Counted from the first letter of the stretch, positions 39,701 through 56,494 are shown. The stretch is DNA of 64,000 nt from Spirochaetota bacterium (GCA_016214035.1 JACRPF010000005.1:496001-560000), one strand, 5' to 3'. Notes: generated by a model from the letters alone, not told the origin. Numbers and translations: made by a program.

Positions 39701-42700
39701 ATAGCGCCGCCGACCACCGGCCCGACGTCAAATGTGGTCAGCAACTCGATTGTAGGCAATAATATCTTTTCAAACGGAACTTACGATATCCGTCTGAACT
39801 CCGAAAATGCGGATACGAATTTCATATCAAATAATTTTATCCACAGTACCCGGTATGGAATTTATCTTGAAAACGGCCCCGATGCTGTTGAGATCGTCAG
39901 GAACACGATATCGAACTGCTTTGTCAATGGTATTTATTCGAGCGGTGTGTACGACAATAATGCCGGAGCCGGTATCGTACATAATAATTTCACCGGAAAC
40001 CTGACCAATGCCCGGCTGTGGTCGTCGGCGTGGGAAGGAACGAATGTGCAGTCGAATTACTGGGGCGTCATAGCCATCGACAGCATCAGCAATAAATTCG
40101 CGGACACCAACGCGGCGACGAATTTCTATGCGCCGTACCGGCTTGGATGGATCGGGGTCGACCAGGCGGATATCGATCCGCCGCCGTCGCCGACCGGTCT
40201 GATTAAAGCCACCCTCGGCAGCACCAACTACATCACCTGGAATGCGGCAGCCGGAGCGGCGGGTTATCATATCTGGCGTGCCGTCACGGTGAACGAGTGG
40301 ACGAATTTCAGCGCACCGTACGCAGCCGTTACCGGATTGAATTTCCTGGATACGAATGCCGGCGCGTCGTATTACTACTATGTAACCGCGTATGACGGAG
40401 CGCTGCCGTATTCCAATGAGTCGTGGTTCAGTGCTCCGGAGACGACGGCGAATACGCCGCCGGTTCTCACCAACCAGCAGGTGCTTCGGCTGCAGGGCGT
40501 GACGAACAGTTCGTTCGCGTTCAGCGTTGTATACTACGACTTTGAGAACGACGGTCCCTCGAACGGCGTGAGCTTGGTGCTCTCGAACGGAGCAACGGGC
40601 ATTGCCGCCACCAACAGCATGCTGCTTGCCTCGGGAGCGTTCAATACGGGGGCCATTTATACCAACAGCGTGGTCATTGCATCCGCGGGTGATTATGTGT
40701 GCTACATGTACGCCGCCGGATCGAACAGCTCGCCGGTACCGAGTGAATCGGTGCGGGTTGCGGCGCCGCATGTGACAACGGGTATTGTCGCATCGAATAT
40801 GACCACCGGATTGTTTTATGACACCGTGCAGACCGCGGTTGACAGCGCGTCTGACGGCGAGACCGTGACGGTGTTCGCAGGAACGTACGGGGAACAGGTG
40901 TATGTTACCAACAAAACCGGCGTGGTCATTGCCGGATATCCCTGGCTTACGAATGCCGACAACACGCAGGTTGTGTTTGACGGCAGCGGAATCGGTGCGC
41001 CGCTGAGTTCGGCGTTTACGTTGAGCTCGGTATCGGGTGTGGTCATCCGCGGCATTACGGCACGTCTGTACACCAACGGGATTACATTCAGGGATAACGC
41101 ATCGAACTGCATTATCGAGGCAAACAACTTATATTCGAACGGCTACGGGATGCCGGGAAGCTATCATGGCGGCATACTCGTCATGTCGAACAGCGCGTAT
41201 TCGAATGCGTTTCTCAGCAATTATGTGTGGCGCAATAATGGCGGCATCATCAATTCAAATTCCAGCAGCAATGTGTTTTATGCGAACACCGTTGCGGGAA
41301 ACACCGGTAACGGCATCGGTTCTCCCACGTATCAGGGCTCATGGCGGCTCTTTAATGAGTTTGTGAACAATGTCATCGTATCAAACGGCGGCAACGGCAT
41401 CTCACTTGCCGCCTACTATCACAATACGACCATTGTATCAAACGTCATCGCGAGCAACAATGGACGCGGCATCTACTGCGACGGGTTCCGCGACAGCATC
41501 ATCGCGTCTAATATCGTGCTCCGCAACAATGGGGGGGGCGGCGGCATATTCCAGGGCGGTGCGGTGAACTGGACGAACACCGTTGCGTTCAACAGCTTTA
41601 TCAGCAACAGCACCTACGGATTCGGTCTGTTCTCGACGAAGATAACGCATTCCTGGATCGTCTCGAATACGGTCAGCGGTAACAGCACGTACGGGCTGTG
41701 GATCACCAACGGCAGTAATGTGTTTGTCGCCAATAACACCGTCGACGGATCGCCGTACGGCATCTATGTCAACGACACGACGAACAATCAGATCACGCGG
41801 AATACGGTGACCAACTGCTCGGCAACCGGCATCTATTTCGGCGGCATGGGCATGGTGAGCGGTCCTAACTGGGTGGGCGGCTACATCGCATATAATAATA
41901 TTTTTTCAAATACGACCAACGTCCGTGTGGCCGATGCGGTGAACATCGCGAATATCGCCCTGTCGAACTACTGGGGAGCCATCGATGTGCCGTCGATAGC
42001 GCCGAAGATGGCCGAATCGCTCGCGCAGGCGACCAACTTCTACGCCCCGTACCGTCTCGGTATGATCGGTGTTGATCAGGCCGACATCGATCCGCTTTCG
42101 CCCCCCGTGATAACGAATGTCACGACGAATGCGGCGACGAATATCCTGGTGCAGTGGCAGGCGGTTGGCGGAGCGGCGGGTTACCGCATATACCGGAGTT
42201 CTGATGCGGAGTCATGGACCAATTTCAATTCCGCGTACGCCGGCCTCGGCACGGTGACATCGTACACCGATACGAATGTGATCGTCGGGACGCGGTATTA
42301 TTACTATCTTACGTCGATCGATAATGCAGTGCCGCTCTCGAATGAATCATGGTTCAGCGAACCGTCGAACGCGAGATTCATGCCGTCGTATTATGCCGAG
42401 TTCACCAATCCGGCGCCGGACAGCGCGCTGTTTCCCGCGGTCTATTCGTTCGCGGGGAATTATGGCCCGCTCACCGGCACCGCGGTATATTTCAGCGCGA
42501 ACGGTACCGTGTTCGGCATGCCGTCGACGAACAGCGGTGTCTGGTCGACCAATGTCGATGTGACACCGTACGTGGGCATGACGAACCGTTTCTATGCGGT
42601 TGCGAGCAATATAGCAACAGGGCTTGCCGAGACGAATATACAGACGAATTTCATCGCCCCGCTCATTGCGTCGAATATGAGTAACGGTACGCGGTATATT

Positions 42701-45511
42701 TCTGTTGCACAGGCGGTTAACGACGCATCAAACGGGCAGGCGGTTGCCGTATTCGCGGGGACTGCACGTGAAAACATCTCCATCGCGGGTAAAACGGATT
42801 TTACGCTTATCGGCTGGCCCTGGGTCACCAATGCCGACAATACCGGCGCCAGAATCGACGGTATGAACCTTTCCGGATACAACAATATGGGTATCGAGAT
42901 CACCAACTCGACGGGTGTGCGCATCGAGGGTCTTACGGTGTGCAACTTCACGAACGGGATATTCATGTCGCGTGATATTTCGAATTGCATCATCATCAAT
43001 AACGATATCAACAATAACGGCAATGTTGATACGACGAATTATTGGCGCGGCGGCCTGGTGTTCTTTACGAATACAACGGTGTCGAATTTCATCATATCGA
43101 ATACCATGTGGAGCAACCGTCTGGGTATCGTATTTCTCGGCGGACCGAAAAATACGTTCATCGGGAACCGGATCTATTGGAATAAAACCCACGGCGCCGG
43201 ATATCCGGACTGGAACCGCCCGATGAGCGATTCATATTTTGAAGGTAACGTGTTCTGCTCGAATGCATCCGCCGGGTTTAACGGCTGGGGTGCGCAGTAC
43301 CGGTGTGTGTTCGTATCGAACAAGTTTTTCAGCAACGGGGGGGTGGGGATCACCATACCCTCGTGGGATAATAATACCTTTTCCATGAATGAGATACTGA
43401 GTAATGCCGGCAACGGCGTAGAATTGAGCTGGGGTACCGGCTCGAACATGTTCGTTTATAACGTAATTGACTATAACAATTCCGGGGTGTACTTCAGCGG
43501 CGATTACGGCACGAGTGATATTTCGAATTATTTCCTGTCGAACAGCATCTCATATAACAGGAATAACGGTGTTGATATTCGTCATGCGGACTGGAATTTC
43601 ATCCGGTACAACGACATCGCCAGCAATGCGTCGCGGGGTATCTACATACAGGCGATCACGAACGGTATAACATTTTCGAATGAGATATTCGGCAACAATA
43701 TTCACGGTAATACGAACGAGGGCGTCTACCTCGTCTATGATAAGGTTGTCGCTACCAGTATTATGTCCAATGTCATCAGCGGCAATCTGCATGGCATCCG
43801 CATTCATGAGGGTGATTCAAACATCATTTTCGGAAATGTGGTGTGCAGTAACCGGCAGGAAGGAATATATTTTCTCCCGAGTTCAAATAACGTTTCGTAT
43901 AATACGATAGAGAGTAATATCATCTTCGGACATACGGGCGGCGCAAATGGACGCGGTATTCTGATATCGGGCGACCGGGCGGACACGAATACCATTGTCA
44001 GTAACGTGATATTCGGAAACAGGATCGGCATACATATTTCCGAGGCAGAGGGGCAGACGGTCATGCTCAATACCATCACGAACAATAGCCAGTACGGCCT
44101 CTACAGCGACGGCACGTATGACGGCAACAGGGGCGCGGGTCTTGTTGCGTTTAACAATTTCACCGGCAATCCGAAGATCATGCGGGTGAATTCGGGATGG
44201 TACAGCACGAATATCCGGAGCAATTATTTCGGCACGATAAACGCCGGAGCGATATCGAACAGCATTGAGAATTGTGCGGGTACGAATTTCTATGCGCCGT
44301 ATCTGCTGAGACCGGTGGATATCTACAGTGCCGACATTACGCCGCCCGCGACACGCCCTGCAGTGACGAATGTATCCACGGGTTTGAACGGCAAGGTAGG
44401 CGTTCTATGGACGGATACCGGCGCGTCGGGGTATCGTGTATACCGCTCGGAGCATATCGATGTCTGGACGAATATGTATGCGTGTGTCGCTGATGTCACC
44501 GCAGCCGGGTATACCGATATCATGGTGCTTCCCGGTACGAATTACTACTACTACGTGACCGCGTACGATGCGGCGAGCAATGAAACATGGTTCAGCGATG
44601 CATCCGGTTTTGCGGGGAACATCAATCCAGGCTTCTGGCTTACCATGACTAATACGATACCGCTTACATGGATCAATACATCGAACTATACCTACCGCGG
44701 GATGTACGGCCTGTCGGCGAACACGATGCCTTATTACAGTACGAACGGGATAGACTTTCAGATGATCACCACGACGAATACCGCCGGCGGATGGTGGCTG
44801 AGCGCAACGCTGCCGTTCGGTTCCGGCTCAACGAATGTTACGAATGTGTTCTATGTGATGATCAGCAACAATGCGGACCGGTTGACCAATCTGGTCACCA
44901 ATTATTTTGACGGATCCGCTCCGGTTGCGGCGCTGACGAATATTGCGGACGGAGCATTGATCACCAATACATTCGCCTTTTGGGGGACGGTGTACGAACC
45001 GGAGAGCGGTATATTGAATGTGTCGGTCAGGATATCCAACGCCGCCGGTTACACAACGAATGTACCGGCAGTGATCAGCAATGGTTCAACGTATTATGCG
45101 GTATGGGATTCGTTTCCTTCTTCCATCACGAACGGGGCGTATTTCGCATATGTGCATTCAGGTAATACTGTCGGACTTACCGCAGAAACCGGGTCACTGC
45201 GGTTTTTCGTGAGCAATCAGCGGGCGTCTGATGATGCCGAAAGCGCCTATGTGTTCAACAATCCGTATACCGGTATCGGTGATATTGTATTCAAAGATCT
45301 GCCGACCAACACGGTACTCAGCATCTATACGGTATCCGGTAAGCTGGTGCGGAAACTGGAAATGCCCGCGGGGGACAATGCCGGCATGATCACCTGGAGT
45401 GTCACTGATATGAACGGCCGTCTCGCGTCGCCGGGGGTCTATATCTGTTATGTCAGTTCACCTGCCGGCATACGCATCATGAAGCTCATCATCAAGCGGC
45501 GTAAACAGTAA
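36719..45511 (+). CDS. Giant surface protein: NHL propeller, three beta-helix/FN3 modules, T9SS-like C-terminal domain
   Basis: 2930 residues. GGGAGG eight nucleotides upstream marks the ATG. The export signal is unusual: a 30-residue Phe/Tyr-rich lead precedes the hydrophobic stretch LAYTAVIYVMFTVASLMPND. Residues ~55-416 hold six NHL repeats (GPRDLYFDETTGYIYVADAY, then YPTAITVTSNEEVYISDNQN), a six-bladed propeller. Three ~550-750-residue modules follow, each an Asn/Ser-rich right-handed beta-helix (NosD/DUF1565-like) closed by ATNFYAPYRLG-type text and an FN3-like domain (YYYYVTAYD, SNESWFS). An Ig-like domain precedes the last ~90 residues (YVFNNPYTGIGDIVFKDL, then LSIYTVSGKLVRKLEM), a FlgD-Ig/type-IX-sorting-like domain. 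Asn content is extreme. The PorV-like gene lies 10 bp downstream. Confidence 0.85.
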   Translation: MLLHFINYFTACIRCKSTFLYLFFNSIYFFRRLAYTAVIYVMFTVASLMPNDSIAFLGWWGRGTNGPGITNIGWNAPASGNFGMAAGDNGAFSGPRDLYFDETTGYIYVADAYNDRVQKFSAPGVYDSKWGAIGTGDNQFNDPFGIAVDSANNTVYVGDYNGNRVIKSDTNGAMIEWYGRGSNTGTGVFSNGTFMLGSGYVGGFTGNSGAAINQPRGLALDANKDLYICDRNNHRVLKYSSTGNFIGWWGRGNLTSGWHHADSAETAAGAANGDWNFDTPIGVAVYGSNVYVSCYNQHRVVRFGTNTNTAFHGFFGRGPVVGWNPGGFNYTSTAGMNNGEFNGALKVTVDSRGNVYVSDVNNYRVQKFTPDGIFLAAFGTYGRGDGQFLYPTAITVTSNEEVYISDNQNHRVMAWKCDTAPLVTVSQSGFATNAGPVVITLDVNETNGYWSTNGSVFYAFTDSTNVSFSVTTRLYYYGQDGSNNSGTNMQLYSIGALAASNTITGAVYTTVSEAVSNAVSGQTVVVFEGVYNESLYFFNMTNISLISYPWLTNGNSGAAVFDGTGLGFDPLVTAGSNRAAVTFSNAVSNSVLGFSIRNYSNGIYFCDSNPLSLRCSYNIIAANRIYSNGNFAATSGHGISLGNSWVVSNNFVSNELFGNARFGVWNGNADWNRYMENSIHHNYRGIDCDGSATYTLIASNLIYSNYSHGVYFNSDNADFNTVISNYIYANDDGIRYVDGDSSAIMSNIICSNRGDGIEMNNQADIWKLWDNDIFGNTSYGINLYGNGDFATVLSNRIWDNGNGLRLWDTDSNMISYNEIVSNRATGLYLDPGAGNPATNNYAVNNIISYNYNNNIAISGDGADNNYFISNFISRPTAPTAANPNNISFGSGPDGNWFISNIICSNAGRPAINCWSGYPAGSWVSDTSNSTNNVFMYNSIFSNSYAITFDHDNYRSFSLISNRIFYNNTGINNSQSDYLYIFGNDICSNFGTGIYIAPPTTGPTSNVVSNSIVGNNIFSNGTYDIRLNSENADTNFISNNFIHSTRYGIYLENGPDAVEIVRNTISNCFVNGIYSSGVYDNNAGAGIVHNNFTGNLTNARLWSSAWEGTNVQSNYWGVIAIDSISNKFADTNAATNFYAPYRLGWIGVDQADIDPPPSPTGLIKATLGSTNYITWNAAAGAAGYHIWRAVTVNEWTNFSAPYAAVTGLNFLDTNAGASYYYYVTAYDGALPYSNESWFSAPETTANTPPVLTNQQVLRLQGVTNSSFAFSVVYYDFENDGPSNGVSLVLSNGATGIAATNSMLLASGAFNTGAIYTNSVVIASAGDYVCYMYAAGSNSSPVPSESVRVAAPHVTTGIVASNMTTGLFYDTVQTAVDSASDGETVTVFAGTYGEQVYVTNKTGVVIAGYPWLTNADNTQVVFDGSGIGAPLSSAFTLSSVSGVVIRGITARLYTNGITFRDNASNCIIEANNLYSNGYGMPGSYHGGILVMSNSAYSNAFLSNYVWRNNGGIINSNSSSNVFYANTVAGNTGNGIGSPTYQGSWRLFNEFVNNVIVSNGGNGISLAAYYHNTTIVSNVIASNNGRGIYCDGFRDSIIASNIVLRNNGGGGGIFQGGAVNWTNTVAFNSFISNSTYGFGLFSTKITHSWIVSNTVSGNSTYGLWITNGSNVFVANNTVDGSPYGIYVNDTTNNQITRNTVTNCSATGIYFGGMGMVSGPNWVGGYIAYNNIFSNTTNVRVADAVNIANIALSNYWGAIDVPSIAPKMAESLAQATNFYAPYRLGMIGVDQADIDPLSPPVITNVTTNAATNILVQWQAVGGAAGYRIYRSSDAESWTNFNSAYAGLGTVTSYTDTNVIVGTRYYYYLTSIDNAVPLSNESWFSEPSNARFMPSYYAEFTNPAPDSALFPAVYSFAGNYGPLTGTAVYFSANGTVFGMPSTNSGVWSTNVDVTPYVGMTNRFYAVASNIATGLAETNIQTNFIAPLIASNMSNGTRYISVAQAVNDASNGQAVAVFAGTARENISIAGKTDFTLIGWPWVTNADNTGARIDGMNLSGYNNMGIEITNSTGVRIEGLTVCNFTNGIFMSRDISNCIIINNDINNNGNVDTTNYWRGGLVFFTNTTVSNFIISNTMWSNRLGIVFLGGPKNTFIGNRIYWNKTHGAGYPDWNRPMSDSYFEGNVFCSNASAGFNGWGAQYRCVFVSNKFFSNGGVGITIPSWDNNTFSMNEILSNAGNGVELSWGTGSNMFVYNVIDYNNSGVYFSGDYGTSDISNYFLSNSISYNRNNGVDIRHADWNFIRYNDIASNASRGIYIQAITNGITFSNEIFGNNIHGNTNEGVYLVYDKVVATSIMSNVISGNLHGIRIHEGDSNIIFGNVVCSNRQEGIYFLPSSNNVSYNTIESNIIFGHTGGANGRGILISGDRADTNTIVSNVIFGNRIGIHISEAEGQTVMLNTITNNSQYGLYSDGTYDGNRGAGLVAFNNFTGNPKIMRVNSGWYSTNIRSNYFGTINAGAISNSIENCAGTNFYAPYLLRPVDIYSADITPPATRPAVTNVSTGLNGKVGVLWTDTGASGYRVYRSEHIDVWTNMYACVADVTAAGYTDIMVLPGTNYYYYVTAYDAASNETWFSDASGFAGNINPGFWLTMTNTIPLTWINTSNYTYRGMYGLSANTMPYYSTNGIDFQMITTTNTAGGWWLSATLPFGSGSTNVTNVFYVMISNNADRLTNLVTNYFDGSAPVAALTNIADGALITNTFAFWGTVYEPESGILNVSVRISNAAGYTTNVPAVISNGSTYYAVWDSFPSSITNGAYFAYVHSGNTVGLTAETGSLRFFVSNQRASDDAESAYVFNNPYTGIGDIVFKDLPTNTVLSIYTVSGKLVRKLEMPAGDNAGMITWSVTDMNGRLASPGVYICYVSSPAGIRIMKLIIKRRKQ
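38215..40445 (+). repeat. Beta-helix/FN3 module 1 of the giant protein
   Basis: Begins ASNTITGAVYTTVSEAV, includes ISYPWLTNG, ends in NFYAPYRLGWIGVDQADIDP and an FN3-like domain. Protein-level repeat of the modules at 40765 and 42664; codons differ at many silent positions, so the duplication is old. Confidence 0.75.
40765..42375 (+). repeat. Beta-helix/FN3 module 2 of the giant protein
   Basis: Begins VASNMTTGLFYDTVQTAVDS, includes AGYPWLTNADNT, ends NFYAPYRLGMIGVDQADIDP plus FN3-like domain. Contains a run of eight G at 41531-41538 coding for glycines. Confidence 0.75.
42664..44600 (+). repeat. Beta-helix/FN3 module 3 of the giant protein
   Basis: Begins IASNMSNGTRYISVAQAVND, includes GWPWVTNADNTGARIDG, ends NFYAPYLLRPVDIYSADITP plus FN3-like domain. 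It has diverged more than modules 1 and 2 in the closing text. Confidence 0.75.
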
Positions 45512-45521
45512 GGAGCTGGCC

Positions 45522-46976
45522 ATGAGTATGAACCTGAAACACCTTATTCTCTATGCGGCACTTGCCGGGACAGTCATGTTTCCCGCGACGATGGATTCGT
45601 TCGATGTACTTAACATCGGAGCCGGCGGCGCGTCGGCGGCGTTTGCGCAGACGGTTGCGGGAGAAAGCGGCACCATCGAAGGCGTGTTCAATAATCCGGC
45701 AACGCTCGGTTCACTCGGCGGCGCTACCGCTGTGCTCGGCTCGTATAATCCGTATATTGAAGGTATGTCGCTGTGGAGCGGCGCGGCCGCGATTCGGCTG
45801 CCGGGCCTCATTACGCTTGCGGTGTCCGGTTACGGCCTTATGTTCGACCCCATTCCCGGCGACATCAAATTCTCCGGTGACACCGGACGGCTCATGCAGT
45901 CGGGCGATTATGTATTCGGCGCCAGTGCCGCATTCCCGCTGGGCTCATACGGGAATCTTCCCTTCACACTCGATCTTGGCATCACTGCACGGTACGTGAT
46001 GGAGATGCTCGATGATGTCACGATATCGGGCGTCATGGCAGACGCGGGCATTATCCTTGCGTTCACCAATCTTGCCGGCAACGATATGTTCTCGGTGGGC
46101 GCGTACGGCCGCAATCTCGGTATACCGCTCTCGCAGGCAAATGAGATTACGCTTCCGATGGCGGTGTGCGCGGGAGTGATGTACGGTGCGCAGGTGTCAC
46201 CGGTATTCGGGTACAAGGCTCTATTCGACGGCACCTATTATTTCAACGATACGCCGAAGTTCAACATCGGTACGGAGATAGGGCTGTTCAGGACCGTGAT
46301 GATACGCATGGGGTACATGATCGGCTATGATGCGCGCGGATTTACAATCGGCGGCGGACTCAATCTCGGTTTCAGCGGCATGAAAGTGTCGTTCGATTAT
46401 TCGCTGGTCCCGCTGGGCGATCTCGGAATGCATCACGCGCTGCAGCTCACCGGCATGTTCGGTGACGTGCAGGTGAAGATTGATCCGGGTAAAGACCTGT
46501 ACGAACAGGGGATGGCGCATGAAAATACAAAACGATATGAAGAAGCGCTGGCAACACTGGCGAAGATAACCGACGGGTCGGCGTATTACGAACGCGCGCG
46601 TAAAAGCATCGAAAAGCTCGCGGTAATCGTTGCGGCGCGCCGCGCCTATGGAGAAGGCGTTGGTTATGCGCGTGAAGGCCGTTTGACTGACGCGGTGGCG
46701 GCATGGAGCCGCGTACCGCAGGGATCTGATGTGTACGAGAAGGCGCAGAAGAGCATCGCCAAAGCGAAGGCGAGAATTGCTGAAGAGGCGGCAGCACAAG
46801 CTGCTCCGGCTGATATGAGCGATGATGATCTGTACCGCAACGGTATTGCTCTGGCGCGGGAAAAGAAGCTCAACGAGGCGATCGAGATGTGGAGCAGGGT
46901 CAGGGAAGGTTCGGAAGTCTACGAGAAGGCGCAGAAAGCGATTGAGCGCGCGAAGAGAATGCTCGCGGAGGAATGA
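45522..46976 (+). CDS. PorV/UPF0164-like outer-membrane barrel with TPR tail
   Basis: 484 residues. Signal peptide (about 1-25), then the hallmark start FDVLNIGAGGASAAFAQTVA...VFNNPATLGSLGG of the PorV/PorQ and spirochaetal UPF0164 (FadL-like) barrels, with Gly/aromatic strands to about residue 320 (YSLVPLGDLGMHHALQLTG closes the barrel). Residues ~327-484 are three helical TPR-like repeats (LYEQGMAHENTKRYEEALAT, YGEGVGYAREGRLTDAVAAW, LYRNGIALAREKKLNEAIEM). PorV in Bacteroidetes shuttles type IX cargo to the attachment complex; the TPR tail is not part of that protein. AAGGAG upstream; 10 bp after the giant sorting-domain protein, so co-expressed with its probable cargo. Confidence 0.82.
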   Translation: MSMNLKHLILYAALAGTVMFPATMDSFDVLNIGAGGASAAFAQTVAGESGTIEGVFNNPATLGSLGGATAVLGSYNPYIEGMSLWSGAAAIRLPGLITLAVSGYGLMFDPIPGDIKFSGDTGRLMQSGDYVFGASAAFPLGSYGNLPFTLDLGITARYVMEMLDDVTISGVMADAGIILAFTNLAGNDMFSVGAYGRNLGIPLSQANEITLPMAVCAGVMYGAQVSPVFGYKALFDGTYYFNDTPKFNIGTEIGLFRTVMIRMGYMIGYDARGFTIGGGLNLGFSGMKVSFDYSLVPLGDLGMHHALQLTGMFGDVQVKIDPGKDLYEQGMAHENTKRYEEALATLAKITDGSAYYERARKSIEKLAVIVAARRAYGEGVGYAREGRLTDAVAAWSRVPQGSDVYEKAQKSIAKAKARIAEEAAAQAAPADMSDDDLYRNGIALAREKKLNEAIEMWSRVREGSEVYEKAQKAIERAKRMLAEE

Positions 46977-47001: not shown

Positions 47002-47700
47002 TTATCCTTCAAGGTCCGCGTCGCGCTTTGCGCGGTCCTTTTCACGCAGATTATGCATGAACCGTTCGGCCGCGGAACGGGCGATATCCTTGCAGCCGAG
47101 TCCGAACGCGAGCGCCATGCCGAATGCGATGGCGGCGATAACGATCTGAAATGTTGCCCCGATGATCGTGGTTTTGATGTTCAGCTGTTCCACCGCGACG
47201 CCGACGACGAATATTATTCCCGCCCATTTTACGATGCGGGCGATGAGTTCGGCGTGAGCGAGTGCCGCGTTCTTTGCCAGGGTCATAACGAAATTGGCGG
47301 CGAATGTTATGAGAATATATCCGAAAACACCGAATAAAAGCGATGTAAGGACGCCCGGTATGATGTTTTCAATATGTCTGAATAAAATGGCGATGATCTG
47401 TATCCCTGAAAGCTTCGCGGCTACTCCTAATGCTGCAAGTATGATGACCCAATAGCATAACAGTGCTACGAGACGTCCGGGGGTGTATGCAACCTGACCT
47501 TTACGCAGAAACTCGGAAAAACCAACACGCTGAAAGAAAATAATGAACCCTTTCGTTTCAAGAAACCGCGAAAGCACCAGCCGCACGACGATTGCAAGCA
47601 GCCAGCCGATGATGAAAATGGCTAGCGCGGAAAGCCAGCCGGGGATTGTCGATAAAAATGACGCCGCGTTGCTCATTGCAGATTCAATGAACGAATTCAT
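47002..47700 (-). CDS. MscS-like channel / conserved TM-helix protein
   Basis: 232 residues. At least four membrane helices (LSALAIFIIGWLLAIVVRLV, ALLCYWVIILAALGVAAKLS, SLLFGVFGYILITFAANFVM, WAGIIFVVGVAVEQL) and a final Gly/Ala-rich helix (IVIAAIAFGMALAFGLGCKD) typical of the conserved TM-helix repeat family (PF05552) grouped with mechanosensitive channels. The large MscS cytoplasmic domain is absent. It probably releases small solutes on hypo-osmotic shock. The start overlaps the dehydrogenase stop by ATGA, with AAAGGAG inside the previous gene: last gene of a four-gene coupled operon. Confidence 0.78.
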   Translation of the reverse strand: MNSFIESAMSNAASFLSTIPGWLSALAIFIIGWLLAIVVRLVLSRFLETKGFIIFFQRVGFSEFLRKGQVAYTPGRLVALLCYWVIILAALGVAAKLSGIQIIAILFRHIENIIPGVLTSLLFGVFGYILITFAANFVMTLAKNAALAHAELIARIVKWAGIIFVVGVAVEQLNIKTTIIGATFQIVIAAIAFGMALAFGLGCKDIARSAAERFMHNLREKDRAKRDADLEG

Positions 47701-48872
47701 AATGCTGCTCCTTTTCTTGCTCTTCCGGCTGCGCCGCCTACGACCATATTGCGGATCTCACGTATGCTCATGCCGGCGATGCCGAGGCGTTCCACGTTCC
47801 TGCCTTCGGCGGCGTAATCAACGCCGTGCATGAGTGAGCCAAGCCGTATCACGGTATCGATCATGGGCGTACTGACACCGAGCATGTTTCCTATGGACGA
47901 CAGCGGTACGAGACTCATGGGAATGTCTTCAAAGATATAGCGATGCACGATGTTCTGCGGAGCCCTGATGCCCCGATAGCTTTCCGTATTGTGTATCGCC
48001 TCGTACAGGTCTTTGCCGGGGGAATCGTAGGACAGATACAGCCACTCACGCGCGGAAACGCTTCGTATACCGAGCGCCGTTGCAACGGCAACACGTTCAC
48101 GGTCTATCTCCGCAAGCACTTTTGCTATTGACGGGGTGATGCCGTCGAGGTAATAATCGAAATCACCATGCGTCTTTTCTATCCACCCGGCATTCATAAT
48201 GGTGAGCGCCGGATGGAACACCGCCCCGATGTTCTCAAGACTGGTAGCCAGCACATTACTGCCCGCTACGAATTGGGGATACGCCCGTGTAAGGACGGCG
48301 AGTACCTGCGGTATCCAGTACGCCGGCAGTGTGGCGATGGGAACGCTGTTTTTGATACGATGAATATGCGCTTCGTATGCCGATGTAGCGCGTGATGCAT
48401 AGATGAATGTCTGCGTTTCGGTAATGAACAGCGGAGTGGTGACGCGCGCGACGTTCAGGCGTTCGCGGAACTCAAGCGCTCCGCCGGTGCGCCCCGGATT
48501 GAGCACGACGATCTGTCCCGCGGTGAGATGCGGCGCCATCGCATCTGCTAGCGAACGATGCGCAGTTGACGGAGTTACTACCATAATTACGTCGGCGTTT
48601 TCCACCGCCCGGACGATATCGCTCGTGGCGCACTCCATCTTTCCGAATCCGTTCACCTCACCGCTCACACTGATGCCGCCGTGCCAACGCACCGCATGCA
48701 GCTTGTCGTCGGTGCGGTTATACAATTTCACCGGGAAACCCGTGATGGCGAGATGTCCCGCCATCGCCAGGCCGCCGTGACCGGCGCCGATGACCGAAAA
48801 ACGTATGGCGGCACCTTTGTTCTTTAACCGTTCAATGCTCTCCTGTAATTTTTTGTCATCGCGTGACGGCAT
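47697..48872 (-). CDS. NAD-dependent opine/octopine-type dehydrogenase
   Basis: 391 residues from ATG 48872, which shares one base with the asnB stop (TGATG). An open frame extends upstream inside asnB and is rejected. N-terminal Rossmann domain (IRFSVIGAGHGGLAMAGHLA, like glycerol-3-phosphate dehydrogenase) and C-terminal octopine/nopaline dehydrogenase domain (about 205-350, with NIGAVFHPALTIMNAGWIE carrying the catalytic-type His). These enzymes reductively join an amino acid's nitrogen to a 2-oxo acid. With a B12 mutase-like enzyme and asparagine synthase upstream, it may finish a small amino-acid-derived product. Translationally coupled on both sides. Confidence 0.8.
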   Translation of the reverse strand: MPSRDDKKLQESIERLKNKGAAIRFSVIGAGHGGLAMAGHLAITGFPVKLYNRTDDKLHAVRWHGGISVSGEVNGFGKMECATSDIVRAVENADVIMVVTPSTAHRSLADAMAPHLTAGQIVVLNPGRTGGALEFRERLNVARVTTPLFITETQTFIYASRATSAYEAHIHRIKNSVPIATLPAYWIPQVLAVLTRAYPQFVAGSNVLATSLENIGAVFHPALTIMNAGWIEKTHGDFDYYLDGITPSIAKVLAEIDRERVAVATALGIRSVSAREWLYLSYDSPGKDLYEAIHNTESYRGIRAPQNIVHRYIFEDIPMSLVPLSSIGNMLGVSTPMIDTVIRLGSLMHGVDYAAEGRNVERLGIAGMSIREIRNMVVGGAAGRARKGAAL

Positions 48873-50344
48873 CAGAATACTCCGGTAAACCCGATGCATG
48901 CGATAGTCTTTTCGGGAAATCGTGACGTGAATATGCGGCGGTATAATAATTCTTCCTTGGTGCGGCATGGGTAATCGGTGGCGGACGACGCCTGTTCAAA
49001 ATCGGCGGTGCTGATTTCATCGTCCGCAATCGTTTCAAGGACATGCATCGACCCTGCACCTGCCGAGAATTTCTGTTTGGGCCGGTCGATGATTGCTGCC
49101 GGCAGCAGATCACGGAATGCTTCGCGTAGAAGCCATTTTTCCGGTTTATCGGCGGCGGCCTTCAGATGTACCGGTATCGAGAATACATAGGTGAGGAAAT
49201 CAATATCCAGGAACGGAACACGTGCTTCAACGCCATGGGCCATGGTCATCCGGTCGACACGCTGCAGATTGGTATGATGCAGCGAGTAGGTGATCCGTAC
49301 CAGTTCCTGCTCCAATGCGCGTTCATCGTGGATGTCCTTGAGATATCGGTATCCGCTGAATAGTTCATCTGCCCCTTCGCCGGTAAGAACAACCTTGATG
49401 CCGTGTGTATGCGCGAGCCGTGAAACAAAATAGCAGGGGATGGCACTTCGTACGAGCGGCGCGTCGTATGATTCCAGATAATAGATGACGTCGGAAAGAA
49501 CATATTCCATATCGGCGCTGGTATATACGAACTCATGATGTGTTGTGCCGAGATGCGCTGCCGCGATGCGCGCGTTCGCAAGATCATCAGAACCCTTCAT
49601 CCCCACTGCGAATGAATGCACCTCGCGGGAGCATGTGCGCATAATGGCGGCAATGATGCTGCTGTCAAGACCTCCGCTCAGGAATACACCGACGGGAACA
49701 TCGGCAATCATCCGTTTTTCAACCGCGTTGAAAAGGAATTTCCGGATGTTGTGAATATGCTCCTCACCGGAAGCATGTGAGACGGCGGGTGACGGCAATG
49801 TAAAATAGCCTGCATAGCCATGAATACTTGAGTATGTATGTCCGGGAGGGAATACGGCGATATCATCACAATGTGCCAACGTCTTCAACTCGGAAGCGAA
49901 ATAATGAGTGCCGTCTTTCGTGCCGGAATACAGCGGCTTGATGCCAAGGCGGTCACGGGCGAGAAACAATTCCCCGGTCTTTGCGTCAAAGATGGCGAAT
50001 GCGAACATACCGTCCAGTTTTTCCACGCATGAGGCACCCATTTCCTCAAAAAGATGCAATATGACTTCCGTATCTGTTCTGGTGGAAAACGTATGTGTCT
50101 CTGACAGTGAGGCATAAAGCTGTTTGAAATTATATATCTCTCCGTTGAAAACAATGGACACAGTGCCGTCCTCATTTGCAATGGGCTGGTGCCCCCCGTC
50201 AACATCGATGATGGAAAGCCGCCGGTGGCCGAGCGTTGCTTCCGGTTCACGAAGGATACCGCAGTCATCCGGGCCGCGGTGACGGATAAGATGCAGTAAT
50301 CGGTCGATATTCCTGCTTTTAGTCGCTGCGACAATACCGCACAT
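48872..50344 (-). CDS. asnB: Asparagine synthase, glutamine-hydrolysing
   Basis: 490 residues, shorter than many AsnB (about 550-650). N-terminal glutaminase with Cys2 nucleophile (MCGIVAA), RHRGPDD and FNGEIYN; C-terminal synthetase with the PP-loop SGGLDSS (about residue 225) and GEGADELFSGYRYL. It converts a carboxylate to an amide using glutamine and ATP. In this operon the acceptor may not be aspartate: homologues also amidate peptides and beta-lactam precursors. It starts 3 bp after the B12-binding gene and ends inside the start of the dehydrogenase gene. Confidence 0.9.
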   Translation of the reverse strand: MCGIVAATKSRNIDRLLHLIRHRGPDDCGILREPEATLGHRRLSIIDVDGGHQPIANEDGTVSIVFNGEIYNFKQLYASLSETHTFSTRTDTEVILHLFEEMGASCVEKLDGMFAFAIFDAKTGELFLARDRLGIKPLYSGTKDGTHYFASELKTLAHCDDIAVFPPGHTYSSIHGYAGYFTLPSPAVSHASGEEHIHNIRKFLFNAVEKRMIADVPVGVFLSGGLDSSIIAAIMRTCSREVHSFAVGMKGSDDLANARIAAAHLGTTHHEFVYTSADMEYVLSDVIYYLESYDAPLVRSAIPCYFVSRLAHTHGIKVVLTGEGADELFSGYRYLKDIHDERALEQELVRITYSLHHTNLQRVDRMTMAHGVEARVPFLDIDFLTYVFSIPVHLKAAADKPEKWLLREAFRDLLPAAIIDRPKQKFSAGAGSMHVLETIADDEISTADFEQASSATDYPCRTKEELLYRRIFTSRFPEKTIACIGFTGVF

Positions 50345-50347
50345 TGT

Positions 50348-51973
50348 TCAGTCCTTCAGTCCGGCTAAACGGTTTTTTTCAGATAATGCACAATGCCGTT
50401 TCCCGTCATAGGACACACAAGCGCCGTTGATAATGCGTGTTGCTGCGCCCCGGGCTAGCAGGTTGCTTTTTAAGTCGGGTGCATCGAGAATGCCGCGTTC
50501 AACCGCCATGCTCAGTACAACAGGATCGGCAAACGGATCCGCGCTCGTTTTGCCGCCCAGTGCATGGATAGCTTTTAAGATAGTTTTCGCATCACGCCGC
50601 AATTCCCGGATGCGCCGTTGGACATCACGGTCTACCGTCATGTCCGGCATACCATCCATACAGTTGCGCAAGACCCCGTGTGCAATGCCGCAGCTTTCAA
50701 TAAGTTCGTCGGCAGTGACCGCATGGTCGCCCTCGCTGTATCCCACGACATGCAGGATATGCGGCTTCATTGCCATTGAGAGAACCGCAGACGCCGCCAT
50801 TTGTCCCTTTGCGGTATTTGCGTCGGCGGAGAAGTTGAGCAGCCCGGCGCGGACCTGAATGAAATATGAGAACCGGTCGTCAACAAGCTCATCAAGCAGT
50901 GACTTCTTGGCTAACATTTTCGCAAGGTCCATCGTTCCTGAAACACCGCCCGGCGTGTTAAACATGAACTGTGCCACATACCGCCGTACTCCGGCAGCCT
51001 TCGCGTTGTATGCGGCAAGATAGAACACGGCAACAGCAACCGCATCCGATGCGCTCCTGAGGCTCCATTGATGCGATTCGTTCACTTCAACGGGTATGCC
51101 CTGTTCTGCGTACCAGCGCATGACCGCGCAATTCTCTGCAATCGCTTCCGCGAGCGGGCGTCCGGAGCGCCCATCGAGCGTGCTGTACCAGTAGAGCGGG
51201 ATTGCACCCCAGGCGTTGTGCAGATGACTGACAGACATCTCAGCCCATCGCGTAAGATCATTCGTTCCCGCATAACAGCGTACCAGGGGGAAATTCCCCG
51301 CCCGTGTGGCGCGGTAGATAGCTGCGAGGTCTTTCGGTGTGCGCAGCGGGACACCGCCGGCGCCGTCCTGTGAACGGTCCATGCGCTCCGGATGAAAGAA
51401 ATGCTCCTGCGCATTCTGATCCGGTCCTACTGAAAGAACGTCCAGAACGCCCGCCTGTGCGATGCGTGCAGCTCCGCGTACCGTCTCGCTGACGGTGGGT
51501 CTTCCGAAATGGTGCCGGAGTAACGGGTAAGGATATTTCTGCTGTATACGGGATTCAAGTGTGTGCTCATGCACGGTGTCTTTCGCGGAAGCGTTCTTAC
51601 CCGCAAGAAATGCACGGATATCTGACAGCGACTCGGTCCCGTCGAATACGCGGAAGAATAAGCCGCTCTTTTTGGCGATGGCGGCAACGGGCGGCGTACC
51701 GCCGAAGATGAAGCGTATACTTCCGGAGAGGCGACGTATCCTGGGCGACATCCTGCGGAATATGGCAGTCGCAACCGACGGCGTCAAGCGGTAACTGAGT
51801 GCGACCATATCAGGATGTGTCTCGCTGATGGTCGAGAACAGATGGCCGTCGGGGACGGCTGTTCCGAGGAAGCGCGTTGCATAGCCTTCATCTTCCGCCA
51901 TTCGCAGAAAGCGTTGTATACCGCCCACATGTACGCAATCGCCGATCGTTGCGCCAAGGATAATTTTTTCCAT
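50348..51973 (-). CDS. B12-binding, glutamate-mutase-epsilon-like protein
   Basis: 541 residues. The N-terminal ~125 residues form a cobalamin-binding Rossmann fold: LGATIGDCVHVGGIQRFLRM, EGYATRFLGTAVP, DMVALSYRLTP, and IRFIFGGTPP. The usual DxHxxG loop is altered to DCVHVGG but keeps the histidine. The remainder (about 150-500) is TIM-barrel-like (YAGTNDLTRWAEMSVSHLHN, ALYWYSTLDGRSGRPLAEAI with VEVNESHQWSLR, YVAQFMFNTPGGVSGTMDLA), recalling the methylaspartate mutase E subunit. A carbon-skeleton rearrangement is a reasonable guess. First gene of the operon; GGAG lies nine nucleotides before the ATG. Confidence 0.7.
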   Translation of the reverse strand: MEKIILGATIGDCVHVGGIQRFLRMAEDEGYATRFLGTAVPDGHLFSTISETHPDMVALSYRLTPSVATAIFRRMSPRIRRLSGSIRFIFGGTPPVAAIAKKSGLFFRVFDGTESLSDIRAFLAGKNASAKDTVHEHTLESRIQQKYPYPLLRHHFGRPTVSETVRGAARIAQAGVLDVLSVGPDQNAQEHFFHPERMDRSQDGAGGVPLRTPKDLAAIYRATRAGNFPLVRCYAGTNDLTRWAEMSVSHLHNAWGAIPLYWYSTLDGRSGRPLAEAIAENCAVMRWYAEQGIPVEVNESHQWSLRSASDAVAVAVFYLAAYNAKAAGVRRYVAQFMFNTPGGVSGTMDLAKMLAKKSLLDELVDDRFSYFIQVRAGLLNFSADANTAKGQMAASAVLSMAMKPHILHVVGYSEGDHAVTADELIESCGIAHGVLRNCMDGMPDMTVDRDVQRRIRELRRDAKTILKAIHALGGKTSADPFADPVVLSMAVERGILDAPDLKSNLLARGAATRIINGACVSYDGKRHCALSEKNRLAGLKD

Positions 51974-52052: not shown

Positions 52053-53987
52053 TTAGCTGTTTTTTTCTTTTGAAGCTTCGTTGAACGCTTTGTTCGATGC
52101 TGAAAGTGCGCTCAATGACTGCAGGATTGTTTTGACGAGTTTGGTTTTCGAGTTTACATTGAATTTTCTGTATATGTTTATCGTATGCACTTTTGCTGTC
52201 GGCTCCGCAATGCCGTACTGATCGGCAATTTCCCGGTTCGAAAAGCCGTTGAGCAGATCCACAAGGATCTGCTCCTCGCGTTTGGTGAGATGATGCTCGC
52301 GCAGGAAGTCCGGATATTTATCGAGATTCAGAAATTCAGAACGAACCATCTGCTCAAGCAGATTCTCTGCGTTCTTGCGCTCTTCCATTTCATCCCGGAG
52401 CCCTTTATTTGATACGATGAGTTCCTTGGTGCGCTCATCGACCATGGTTTCAAGATGATTGCTGTATTCGGTGAGCTTTTTCCTTGATGATACAATTTCA
52501 TTGATATATCGGGAAAGCCGATGTGCCATTTTGTTGAAAGAGTCGGCGATGCGTCCGAATTCATCGTTTCGTTCTATTTTAAGATTAACCTTTAACTTGT
52601 TCTGATCGAACGATTCAATGGCGGCCATTAAGCCATTGAGCGGCGTCAGCAGTGCCCGATAGAAGAAAAGCGGGAATAAAATAAATACTATTGCCGCGAT
52701 CATGAGCGCCATCCAGATATAATTAACAAGCACATCACCAAGATAACGGCGGTATTCGATGTACGACAGCCCCACTTCATATACATATTTTCCTGATGTG
52801 AATGTCCGGCAGATCGAATATGACGCGGGGTCGGAGACGTTGATCGAACGGAACTGTCTGCGGGGATTTGCCTGGTGCCTTTTTTTGCCCTCCTCATTTA
52901 TTATTTTTGCAATCGACATTCCCGCAGGCTGTATAACAATATCCTCATAATTCGTCGATGGAACATTGTCATCCGCCGGATGCCGGATGATATATATGAT
53001 GTCCTGCGGCAAATATGACCCGTCCTGCCGGAGCACATATGCCGAAGCGGCATTTACAGATTTTATAAGCTTTTTCTCATAAATCTGTTCGATGCTGCTG
53101 TTTGCGGGGATGGCCATGAAGCCGATAACAGCCAGCGCGGTTATGAGCGGGATTACCGTGATCTTAAAAAGAAATGTGGTCGGCTGCGGCGAGTTGTTCA
53201 TGTAGATGACAACAAAAATAACAAGAAAAAGCATTGAACCTATTGAGACGAAGAGTTCATAGCTCGCATAGCGTATCACGCCTTTGAGCGCGAGCAGATA
53301 AAAAGACATGAGCGCAAGCGGGATGAGTGTTGCGAAAAGAAACGCCCGACAGGCCCGGGCGTGAATTCCAACGGGAAACAGCAATGCGCGGACAAATGAA
53401 ACGATCTTTTCGGCGGGAACGGCGTATATACGGGCGATACCATGTTTCGGCTGTTTTGTGGAGGGAACACGCTTCTGACTGATTGAAAAACGTACGGTTT
53501 TCCGAATAAACACAACGGCGGACCAGATGTAAATTACGACAAAGAGCGGGGCGATGAATTCACCGCGAAACGACATGTCGTTGTAACGGTATGAACTGAG
53601 TATGAAATCAAAATATGGCACGGCAGACGACGTTCGAAGGGCAAAAATAATATATGAGATGATAGTGAACAGTGAGAGCATAGACAGAACAATGATCGAT
53701 TCACGTTTATGTACGTTTTCGTGGTACATATATGCGAATATCGTCAGAAAAATACCGCCTGCCATCAAAGAACGGTGTATATAAATAAGGTTTACCACTC
53801 CAGGTGTAAGCGCAGAGTCAAGAATAAATCCGATGAATCGTGTCGCGGCAAATGAGATCACATATATTGCAATAAACCAGGTGGCTGCCGACTTTTTTCT
53901 GAACGTCAGTATATAGATGCCGAGTACCGCGGCGGAAAGCGCGGATATAAAATGTCCAACGGCATAGAGTGTGCTGTATAGAGGCAT
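52053..53987 (-). CDS. Membrane-bound LuxR-family one-component regulator with HAMP
   Basis: 644 residues. An N-terminal block of about seven to eight helices (residues 8-300), then one helix (about 285-305), a periplasmic stretch of about 110 residues (IEQIYEKKLIKSVNAASAYV to YVYEVGLSYIEYRR), another helix, a HAMP domain (LTPLNGLMAAIESFDQNKLK, then NDEFGRIADSFNKMAHRL), a coiled coil (about 510-560) and a C-terminal LuxR HTH (LTKREEQILVDLLNGFSNRE, then IADQYGIAEPTAKVHTINIY). DNA binding from the membrane is implied, with no kinase or receiver. It sits 79 bp upstream of the B12/asnB/opine/MscS operon, same strand, and is its natural candidate regulator. Confidence 0.85.
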   Translation of the reverse strand: MPLYSTLYAVGHFISALSAAVLGIYILTFRKKSAATWFIAIYVISFAATRFIGFILDSALTPGVVNLIYIHRSLMAGGIFLTIFAYMYHENVHKRESIIVLSMLSLFTIISYIIFALRTSSAVPYFDFILSSYRYNDMSFRGEFIAPLFVVIYIWSAVVFIRKTVRFSISQKRVPSTKQPKHGIARIYAVPAEKIVSFVRALLFPVGIHARACRAFLFATLIPLALMSFYLLALKGVIRYASYELFVSIGSMLFLVIFVVIYMNNSPQPTTFLFKITVIPLITALAVIGFMAIPANSSIEQIYEKKLIKSVNAASAYVLRQDGSYLPQDIIYIIRHPADDNVPSTNYEDIVIQPAGMSIAKIINEEGKKRHQANPRRQFRSINVSDPASYSICRTFTSGKYVYEVGLSYIEYRRYLGDVLVNYIWMALMIAAIVFILFPLFFYRALLTPLNGLMAAIESFDQNKLKVNLKIERNDEFGRIADSFNKMAHRLSRYINEIVSSRKKLTEYSNHLETMVDERTKELIVSNKGLRDEMEERKNAENLLEQMVRSEFLNLDKYPDFLREHHLTKREEQILVDLLNGFSNREIADQYGIAEPTAKVHTINIYRKFNVNSKTKLVKTILQSLSALSASNKAFNEASKEKNS

Positions 53988-55225: not shown

Positions 55226-56494
55226 TCAGGGTGCGCGGTATTTGATGCGCAGTTTTTTCAGACGTTCTTTTGCCGAACTATAGAGCGGTGATGAATCTGT
55301 AATTGAAGACAGGAATGCATATGCCTTTGCATACTCATGCTGCACGATGAGTTCATCGGCAAGCGCAATGATACGCAGCTCGGCCTTCCGGATGTTCTGA
55401 AGCGCCCGCTCATAGGATGCGGATTTTTTTTCGATCTGCCGCCAATACAATAGCGCAGCTGGATAGTCGCCATTTTTAGCCGCGCCAATACCGCGCCGCA
55501 TCAAGTCCTCATTGCGGTTATCGATCGGTTCGGGTGCCGCTTTTTTCATGTCCAGATCGGCGATCGCCGTACTGAGCTGCATACTATGATGCATGCCCAT
55601 GTTACCGAGCGGTATGAGCGCATAATCAATCCGCAGACGCATCGCCGGGGGGCCGAATGCGATGCCGGCGCCGAAAGTCGGTCCGCGGGCATCAGCGCCG
55701 ATCATATACCCGTACCGCACCGCGAGCATCTTTATGAACGATGTTTCGAACCCCGCTGCAATGATGAGCGCACCGTCCGTGTCCACACGAATATCGGAAC
55801 GCAGGCGGTACGAGACGTTTTTTGTCACGTCCATTCCATATTCAAATCCGCCTGCAATGCGCAGCGGCAACGTTATCCGCTGCGACGCAGTAACGAGAGG
55901 CATGCCTGCATTTTTTACGGCAAATCCTATAGAAAGCGTGTCGCGTATGATAATATTACTTATGGTTGCGATACAGCCGGCGTCAAACATGAGGGCCGAC
56001 AGTGAAAGATCATCAAGGCTTTCTGCGGCATACTTTATTGCTGCTCCCATATCAACGGCCAGCGGAAGCTTGAGCAGTTTCCCGACGGGTACGCCGATGC
56101 CGATGCATGCCGCATAGCATCCGGCGCTGACCATTCTTCCCGGATCTCCATCAAAGGTGATATCACCGGCGAACGGTTCGAAGACAAGACCATGACCGGC
56201 GACGGAAAGCGTGCCGACACCCTCAAATGCATACGCGGCGGCGCCGTTCCACGCGGTCATGATCAGATACGGATCATACGAAGCCGTCAGCGAGATGCCG
56301 CGGAGGGAGGCAAGCGACGCCGGATTGTTGAAACTTCCATCCGGATCCCCCGGTGCCGCTGTTGATGCCGTGCCGAGCGATGCGGCGGCCCCGCCGGCGG
56401 CGATATCAAGGAACGAAAATGATTCACTGATCGATCCGAACATCCCGGCGGCCAGCGCAACAGAAATGATAATGAGAACTCCCGTCTTTTTCAT
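55226..56494 (-). CDS. PorV/UPF0164-like outer-membrane barrel with TPR tail (second copy)
   Basis: 422 residues. Signal peptide (MKKTGVLIIISVALAAGMFG) and the same opening as the 45522 protein: FSFLDIAAGGAAASLGTAST...SFNNPASLASLRG. Barrel strands run to about residue 310 (DYALIPLGNMGMHHSMQLST matches its paralogue's closing strand), followed by helical TPR-like repeats (LMRRGIGAAKNGDYPAALLY, LADELIVQHEYAKAYAFLSS). GGAGGT precedes the ATG, inside the end of the upstream gene. It is 3 bp downstream of a secreted protein with a type-IX-like C-terminal domain, repeating the arrangement at 36719-46976. Confidence 0.8.
   Translation of the reverse strand: MKKTGVLIIISVALAAGMFGSISESFSFLDIAAGGAAASLGTASTAAPGDPDGSFNNPASLASLRGISLTASYDPYLIMTAWNGAAAYAFEGVGTLSVAGHGLVFEPFAGDITFDGDPGRMVSAGCYAACIGIGVPVGKLLKLPLAVDMGAAIKYAAESLDDLSLSALMFDAGCIATISNIIIRDTLSIGFAVKNAGMPLVTASQRITLPLRIAGGFEYGMDVTKNVSYRLRSDIRVDTDGALIIAAGFETSFIKMLAVRYGYMIGADARGPTFGAGIAFGPPAMRLRIDYALIPLGNMGMHHSMQLSTAIADLDMKKAAPEPIDNRNEDLMRRGIGAAKNGDYPAALLYWRQIEKKSASYERALQNIRKAELRIIALADELIVQHEYAKAYAFLSSITDSSPLYSSAKERLKKLRIKYRAP

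Follow-up and report, generated by a model that had tools for sequence, protein, structure and literature searches.

Why should a B12-dependent mutase, an asparagine synthase, an opine dehydrogenase and a channel-like membrane protein be encoded side by side in one tightly packed operon? The question is raised by a 64,000-nucleotide stretch of DNA from a Spirochaetota bacterium (GCA_016214035.1 JACRPF010000005.1:496001-560000), referred to here in its full length as the window, in which a four-gene operon spans 51973..47002 on the minus strand throughout. This operon appears to encode an as yet undescribed pathway to a small compound derived from amino acids. Its genes, checked in the sequence, are as follows.

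51973..50348, minus strand: B12-mutase-like gene (protein P0001), 541 amino acids
50344..48872, minus strand: AsnB gene (P0002), 490 amino acids
48872..47697, minus strand: opine dehydrogenase (ODH) gene (P0003), 391 amino acids
47700..47002, minus strand: MscS-type channel-like gene, 232 amino acids

The mutase and AsnB genes are separated by a 3-bp gap (TGA-ACA-ATG), the AsnB and ODH genes are joined by a TGATG overlap in which the ODH start at 48872 is the last base of the AsnB stop codon region, and the ODH and channel genes share an ATGA overlap. The four genes, their families and these junctions had been reported in a first-pass annotation of this DNA, and all were confirmed in the sequence. 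That annotation had also expected strict co-translation. The junctions make translational coupling across the four genes likely, though not necessarily strict, as a Shine-Dalgarno-like stretch precedes each of the AsnB, ODH and channel genes, so that each could be initiated through coupling or on its own.

P0001 is, as its sequence and modelled fold indicate, a single-chain member of the glutamate-mutase superfamily that joins a B12 domain to a MutE-type barrel. The B12-binding domain occupies residues ~1-125 and the MutE-like triosephosphate isomerase (TIM) barrel residues ~140-541. PF02310 (B12-binding) was the sole Pfam match of P0001 (38 bits, cut-off 32.1), and PF06368 (MutE) was matched weakly by 9/13 of its close homologues (best 2.5e-5). 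A profile of 31 diverse mutase members aligned with MutE over 407 columns in hhalign (E 5.8e-7). The AlphaFold2 model of P0001, with a predicted local distance difference test score (pLDDT) of 78, matched glutamate mutase E (6h9e_B, E 1.4e-12; 1cb7_B, 2.7e-12) and also ornithine and lysine aminomutases, and its N domain matched glutamate mutase S (1cb7_A). Within the cobalamin motif, His and Gly (HxxG) are invariant in 31/31 diverse mutase rows. In window-type and Anaerolineae mutases this motif is CxHxxG, with Cys replacing Asp; the full DxHxxG (DAHTLG or DAHSLG) is found in three divergent mutases of the window's phylum (L043-L045).

The substrate residues of GlmE, the arginine claw R66/R100/R149 plus K326, fall at about H155/A188/Y234/V410 of P0001 in a profile alignment whose register is good to +/- 1-2 residues, and these are not conserved equivalents. 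In the same alignment, GlmE E330 meets the invariant E414 of P0001. Five other arginines, R153, R232, R269, R306 and R375, show no variation, each being placed within a predicted barrel strand or immediately after one. We infer that the mutase substrate is acidic and other than plain glutamate. With the GlmE substrate residues out of alignment, the firm label of plain glutamate mutase (Glu to 3-methylaspartate) was rejected.

P0003 matched PF02317 (Octopine_DH) with 169.6 bits against a cut-off of 30, and ArODH (1bg6) with an E-value of 8.5e-73. In the numbering of P0003, whose start lies one codon upstream of ATG, the Rossmann glycines G30 and G32 and the catalytic H221 are kept in 56/56 ODH homologues, the catalytic R312 in 54/56 and D317 in 53/56. 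According to a 2024 study, a preference for L-Asp/L-Glu with pyruvate comes from Arg at position 111 and Gly at position 198 of ArODH, a swap of this pair switches amino acid preference (in mODHs to L-Asp), and Arg at position 35 goes with NADPH (PMC10787698). Read from the 1bg6 alignment, positions 111/198/35 correspond to R129/G217/R54 of P0003. The R129/G217 pair was present in 51/51 mutase-linked ODH rows; a few of these are duplicates of one locus and they are mostly of shared ancestry, hence not independent, but they include a deep branch only 24-29% identical, which helps. The pair was present in 0/5 ODHs of the window's phylum from genomes without the mutase. P0003 is predicted to be an opine dehydrogenase whose specificity is for acidic L-amino acids, with NADPH as cofactor. 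Both enzyme identities given by the first-pass annotation are borne out at this level: P0001 keeps the B12-ligand His and is modelled with a glutamate-mutase fold, and P0003 has the catalytic residues, together with those for acidic amino acids. At two loci (L102:3101-5309 and L103:2725-4932) a tandem ODH gene pair precedes one mutase gene, which suggests two opine steps or substrates.

The mutase and ODH genes are consistently found together. A mutase match, mostly of the stand-alone type, is carried by 84/249 sampled genomes of the Pelolinea class, and Pelolinea submarina strain MO-CFX1 is among the bacteria with the pair. An ODH gene was directly adjacent to the stand-alone mutase gene, on the same strand, in 33/33 Anaerolineae loci that were read with both genes (32 distinct, L003 and L090 lying on one contig; the genes of L002 and L017 are partial). 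A second Anaerolineae group (L076-L087) carries the mutase within a fusion of ~1,220-1,430 amino acids with B12-binding and MutE-like domains, beside an ODH gene; ODH was the neighbour in 10/10 fused-type loci whose contigs reach far enough. The fused mutase of L083 ends in a C-terminal MutL reactivase domain (PF13941, 2.6e-77). Among ~292-296 sampled genomes of the window's own phylum, the 4 with a close ODH are the same 4 that have the mutase, and the three other ODHs are 61-66% identical to that of the window. The window ODH groups in the tree with those of its own phylum at full support. The window mutase shares 45-48% identity with the Anaerolineae type and ~31-35% with the mutases of its own phylum. 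The one slot is thus occupied by two mutase sub-types, an argument for their having the same function.

Conserved co-occurrence of all four families had been set beforehand as the main test of the first-pass proposal, and it was observed. In L044, from another family of the phylum, the genes run AsnB-CitMHS-ODH-channel-mutase-ATPgrasp in one direction; since this locus holds the same four families in another order, the grouping is more than chance. L045 reads ATPgrasp (cut by the contig end)-mutase-ODH-channel, and L043 reads mutase-ODH-channel, with an AsnB relative deleted for the GATase domain elsewhere in the same genome. In Anaerolineae, an AsnB-type gene follows the mutase/ODH pair in L002, L009, L014, L093 and L098, and a Ddl-like ATP-grasp gene adjoins it in L005, L009, L097 and L100, so that one or the other is present in 8 loci in all. 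This is well beyond chance by a rough binomial estimate, which for 5 AsnB neighbours in 33 loci gave 3e-8, assuming one AsnB per 3,000 genes; the sampled Anaerolineae genomes had some 0-3 clear AsnB-type genes each. The AsnBs of L093 and L098 are near-identical, as are those of L002 and L014, so the independent gains are fewer.

P0002 itself is a canonical enzyme. It has Asn_synthase and GATase domains, exceeds the cut-off of the NCBIfam AsnB equivalog NF006949 (574.8 versus 499 bits) and matches E. coli AsnB (1ct9) along its whole length (E 4e-96). Both domains are intact, with the glutaminase Cys2, the SGGLDSS motif and the conserved C-domain motifs all kept. The cluster AsnBs are scattered in a tree rather than forming one clade, so the tree gives no support to co-inheritance. 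Some of the relatives have lost Cys2, as listed here.

L002:2002-3342, L009:12133-13476 and L014:10397-11737: Cys2-less AsnB relatives of 446-447 amino acids, missing much of the glutaminase domain, beside the mutase/ODH pair, Anaerolineae
L135:331-1977: Cys2-less AsnB relative, likewise missing much of the glutaminase domain, unlinked, genome G169

In the three clustered proteins VAHVGFLD replaces EARVPFLD. After asparagine synthetases, the nearest solved structures to the GATase-deleted relatives are beta-lactam synthetase and CarA.

The fourth protein had been called an MscS-like channel, and this description stands in part. The MscS-type transmembrane helix of PF05552 was matched (25.7 bits, cut-off 22), but a Pfam search of the protein did not find the MscS beta domain (PF00924), so the channel label derives solely from the helix match. 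The protein scored 52 bits against NF033912, below the cut-off of 100. It is 36-40% identical to proteins in three related clusters, with which it shares a conserved AFGLGCKD motif. In each of the phylum's four clusters the channel-type protein has D(L/M)EG at its extreme C terminus (window 47002-47030, minus strand).

We consider it probable, with some reserve, that the operon encodes a dedicated pathway in which the ODH and the mutase work on the same carbon skeleton, with an ATP-driven modification and a membrane protein handling release or ion balance. The substrates, step order, product and biological role proposed here are what we infer from the families and residues described above. The first-pass proposal, in which the skeleton would be rearranged, amidated and then condensed with a 2-oxo acid while the channel let out an osmolyte or metallophore-like opine, is supported in part. 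The NADPH-dependent ODH would condense an L-amino acid of the acidic Asp/Glu type with a 2-oxo acid that is probably pyruvate, and the one-chain adenosylcobalamin (AdoCbl) mutase would rearrange the acidic skeleton, before or after this condensation. The tricarboxylate opine is somewhat more likely as the mutase substrate than the free acidic amino acid, and a reasonable one because of the extra invariant arginines. AsnB would spend ATP to amidate or extend the product, a step that in sister clusters may fall to a Ddl-type ATP-grasp ligase, to an AsnB relative lacking the GATase domain, or to both. The small MscS-type protein, with a CitMHS-type carboxylate transporter in one relative, would handle release or ion balance. 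The direction in the window operon would be anabolic, and fused-type loci, with their RpiR regulators and peptide-type ATP-binding cassette (ABC) transport components, may run the pathway backwards. It is an improbable extension that the mutase acts by B12-radical chemistry on the opine itself, an acidic amino acid with an N-(1-carboxyethyl) group, yielding a skeleton that no known enzyme pair makes, and that the GATase-deleted, Cys-less AsnB relatives of the sister clusters then close or extend it.

Several observations weigh against a dedicated pathway. Most Anaerolineae pairs have neither AsnB nor ATP-grasp beside them, and Cys takes the place of the more usual Asp in the window-type B12 motif. 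MutL is the reactivase partner of glutamate mutase, and the window genome has neither a MutL reactivase nor a PduO-type adenosyltransferase; it does have a CobA/BtuR adenosyltransferase, so AdoCbl can be made. The channel-like protein yielded a low-confidence model (pLDDT 65), for which Foldseek returned no match of use. P0002 is the only AsnB-type gene of the genome and could just make asparagine. A looser reading of the operon, which we hold to be doubtful, is that AsnB serves asparagine supply, the channel acts as a housekeeping valve, and the pathway consists of the mutase and ODH alone. A canonical, unique AsnB and the many Anaerolineae pairs without either gene are in keeping with it. 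However, L044 again has AsnB and the channel alongside the pair, though in a different gene order, the five Anaerolineae loci also carry AsnB-type genes, and GatB is present in the window genome, so that Asn-tRNA may be made by another route. The pathway could also be catabolic, which appears unlikely: an imported opine-like compound would be oxidised by the ODH and the freed acidic amino acid rearranged by the mutase and then fermented, in the manner of the methylaspartate route. Fused-mutase Anaerolineae loci (L082, L083, L085) do have RpiR regulators and ABC transport components among their neighbours, including substrate-binding proteins of family 5 and permease components, and L083 has a gamma-glutamyltransferase and an amidohydrolase nearby. 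The window operon, however, has an ATP-consuming AsnB and no ABC importer, and its genome lacks MutE.

The remaining alternatives accept synthesis and differ in what is made. A compatible solute is rather unlikely to be the product: reductive alkylation would cap the amine and amidation the carboxylate, leaving a low-charge solute that the channel vents on hypo-osmotic shock. AsnB-type amidation with ligation parallels the synthesis of N-acetylglutaminylglutamine amide (NAGGN) by asnO/ngg (PMC8070244), a channel-type gene is present in 4/4 clusters of the window's phylum, and the ATP-using enzymes favour synthesis in these clusters. Against this, an opine of Asp/Glu and pyruvate would have three carboxylates before amidation, and Anaerolineae clusters carry no osmotic marker. 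Proteins of PF05552 are not all osmotic valves, which also tells against such a solute. NAGGN synthesis itself was rejected, as P0002 fell far under the cut-off of the NAGGN amidotransferase AsnO (TIGR03104; 286.9 versus 570.1 bits) and the operon has no Ngg-type gene. The same three carboxylates, with a secondary amine, could instead make the acidic opine a metal ligand, modified by AsnB or ATP-grasp and exported. Such an aminopolycarboxylate chelator fits the tricarboxylate secondary amine predicted as the ODH product, and the CitMHS-family transporter in L044, but we judge it quite improbable, since P0003 belongs to PF02317 with no CntM-family Pfam match, and the genes of the clusters include no recognisable nicotianamine synthase or metal importer. 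The defining feature of opine zincophore loci is cntL-cntM together with import and export genes (PMC7438024), and a zincophore was rejected because the operon has no CntM-type enzyme and no nicotianamine synthase. We retain the dedicated pathway as the preferred reading.

A candidate regulator lies next to the operon.

52053..53987, minus strand: membrane sensor with HAMP (PF00672) and LuxR-type helix-turn-helix (PF00196) domains

This gene ends 79 bp upstream of the operon on the same strand and encodes an unusual one-component membrane sensor, for which the phylum's three other clusters showed no homologue. In a weak promoter scan (11 sites versus 9.4 expected), the best minus-strand site lay upstream of the sensor gene (54067-54040) and none fell in the 79-bp gap between sensor and mutase genes, so the five genes may share a transcript. 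Beyond the operon, 25 bp away, a plus-strand gene ends at 46976. Two apparently paralogous outer-membrane-protein-like genes flank the operon (45522-46976, plus strand; 55226-56494, minus strand), with N-terminal halves that are alike and C-terminal parts resembling tetratricopeptide repeats. By eye, the 2,930-amino-acid protein encoded at 36719-45511 (plus strand) has repeated Asn/Ser-rich beta-helix-like blocks, NHL-like repeats at its start and a FlgD-like C-terminal end. Plasmid carriage of the operon was rejected, as there was no match among plasmids.

The first-pass annotation knew of no described pathway with this gene set, and our literature searches likewise found none: no paper in the library searched joined glutamate mutase with opine dehydrogenase or octopine dehydrogenase with Anaerolineae, and broader searches gave nothing relevant to the pair. 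The component families are known. As far as could be found, no description exists of this mutase subfamily, of its variant motif or of its fixed tie to an acidic-amino-acid ODH. Known B12 carbon-skeleton mutase reactions are few, and here a large uncharacterised subfamily is tied to one partner enzyme. This suggests a genomic role for acidic-amino-acid ODHs, so far known from in vitro work. With two apparently soluble enzymes and predictable cofactors, the chemistry lends itself to direct testing.

Compared with known systems, P0001 resembles glutamate mutase (GlmES/MutES, PF06368 plus MutS) in pairing a B12 domain with a MutE-type TIM barrel, by both profile and fold, but is one chain with the B12 domain N-terminal, has CxHxxG for DxHxxG and other invariant arginines, and comes from a genome without MutL. 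The zincophore clusters (cntL-cntM) likewise condense an amino-acid-type amine reductively with a 2-oxo acid, but the ODH of the operon is of PF02317 and no nicotianamine synthase accompanies it. The asnO-ngg pathway shares an AsnB-type enzyme and, in the sister clusters, a peptide-bond-forming ligase; the operon, unlike it, has a mutase and an ODH in place of Ngg, and an AsnO score far below cut-off. P0002 differs from E. coli AsnB in sitting inside a mutase/ODH operon. P0003 is like the mODHs, a subclass of metagenomic ODHs that use Asp/Glu with pyruvate and are deposited as GenBank TPA BK063522-BK063532, in its residues, with Arg at 111, Gly at 198, Arg at 35 and the His-Asp dyad; the words 'mutase' and 'gene cluster' are absent from the main text of the paper describing those enzymes (PMC10787698).

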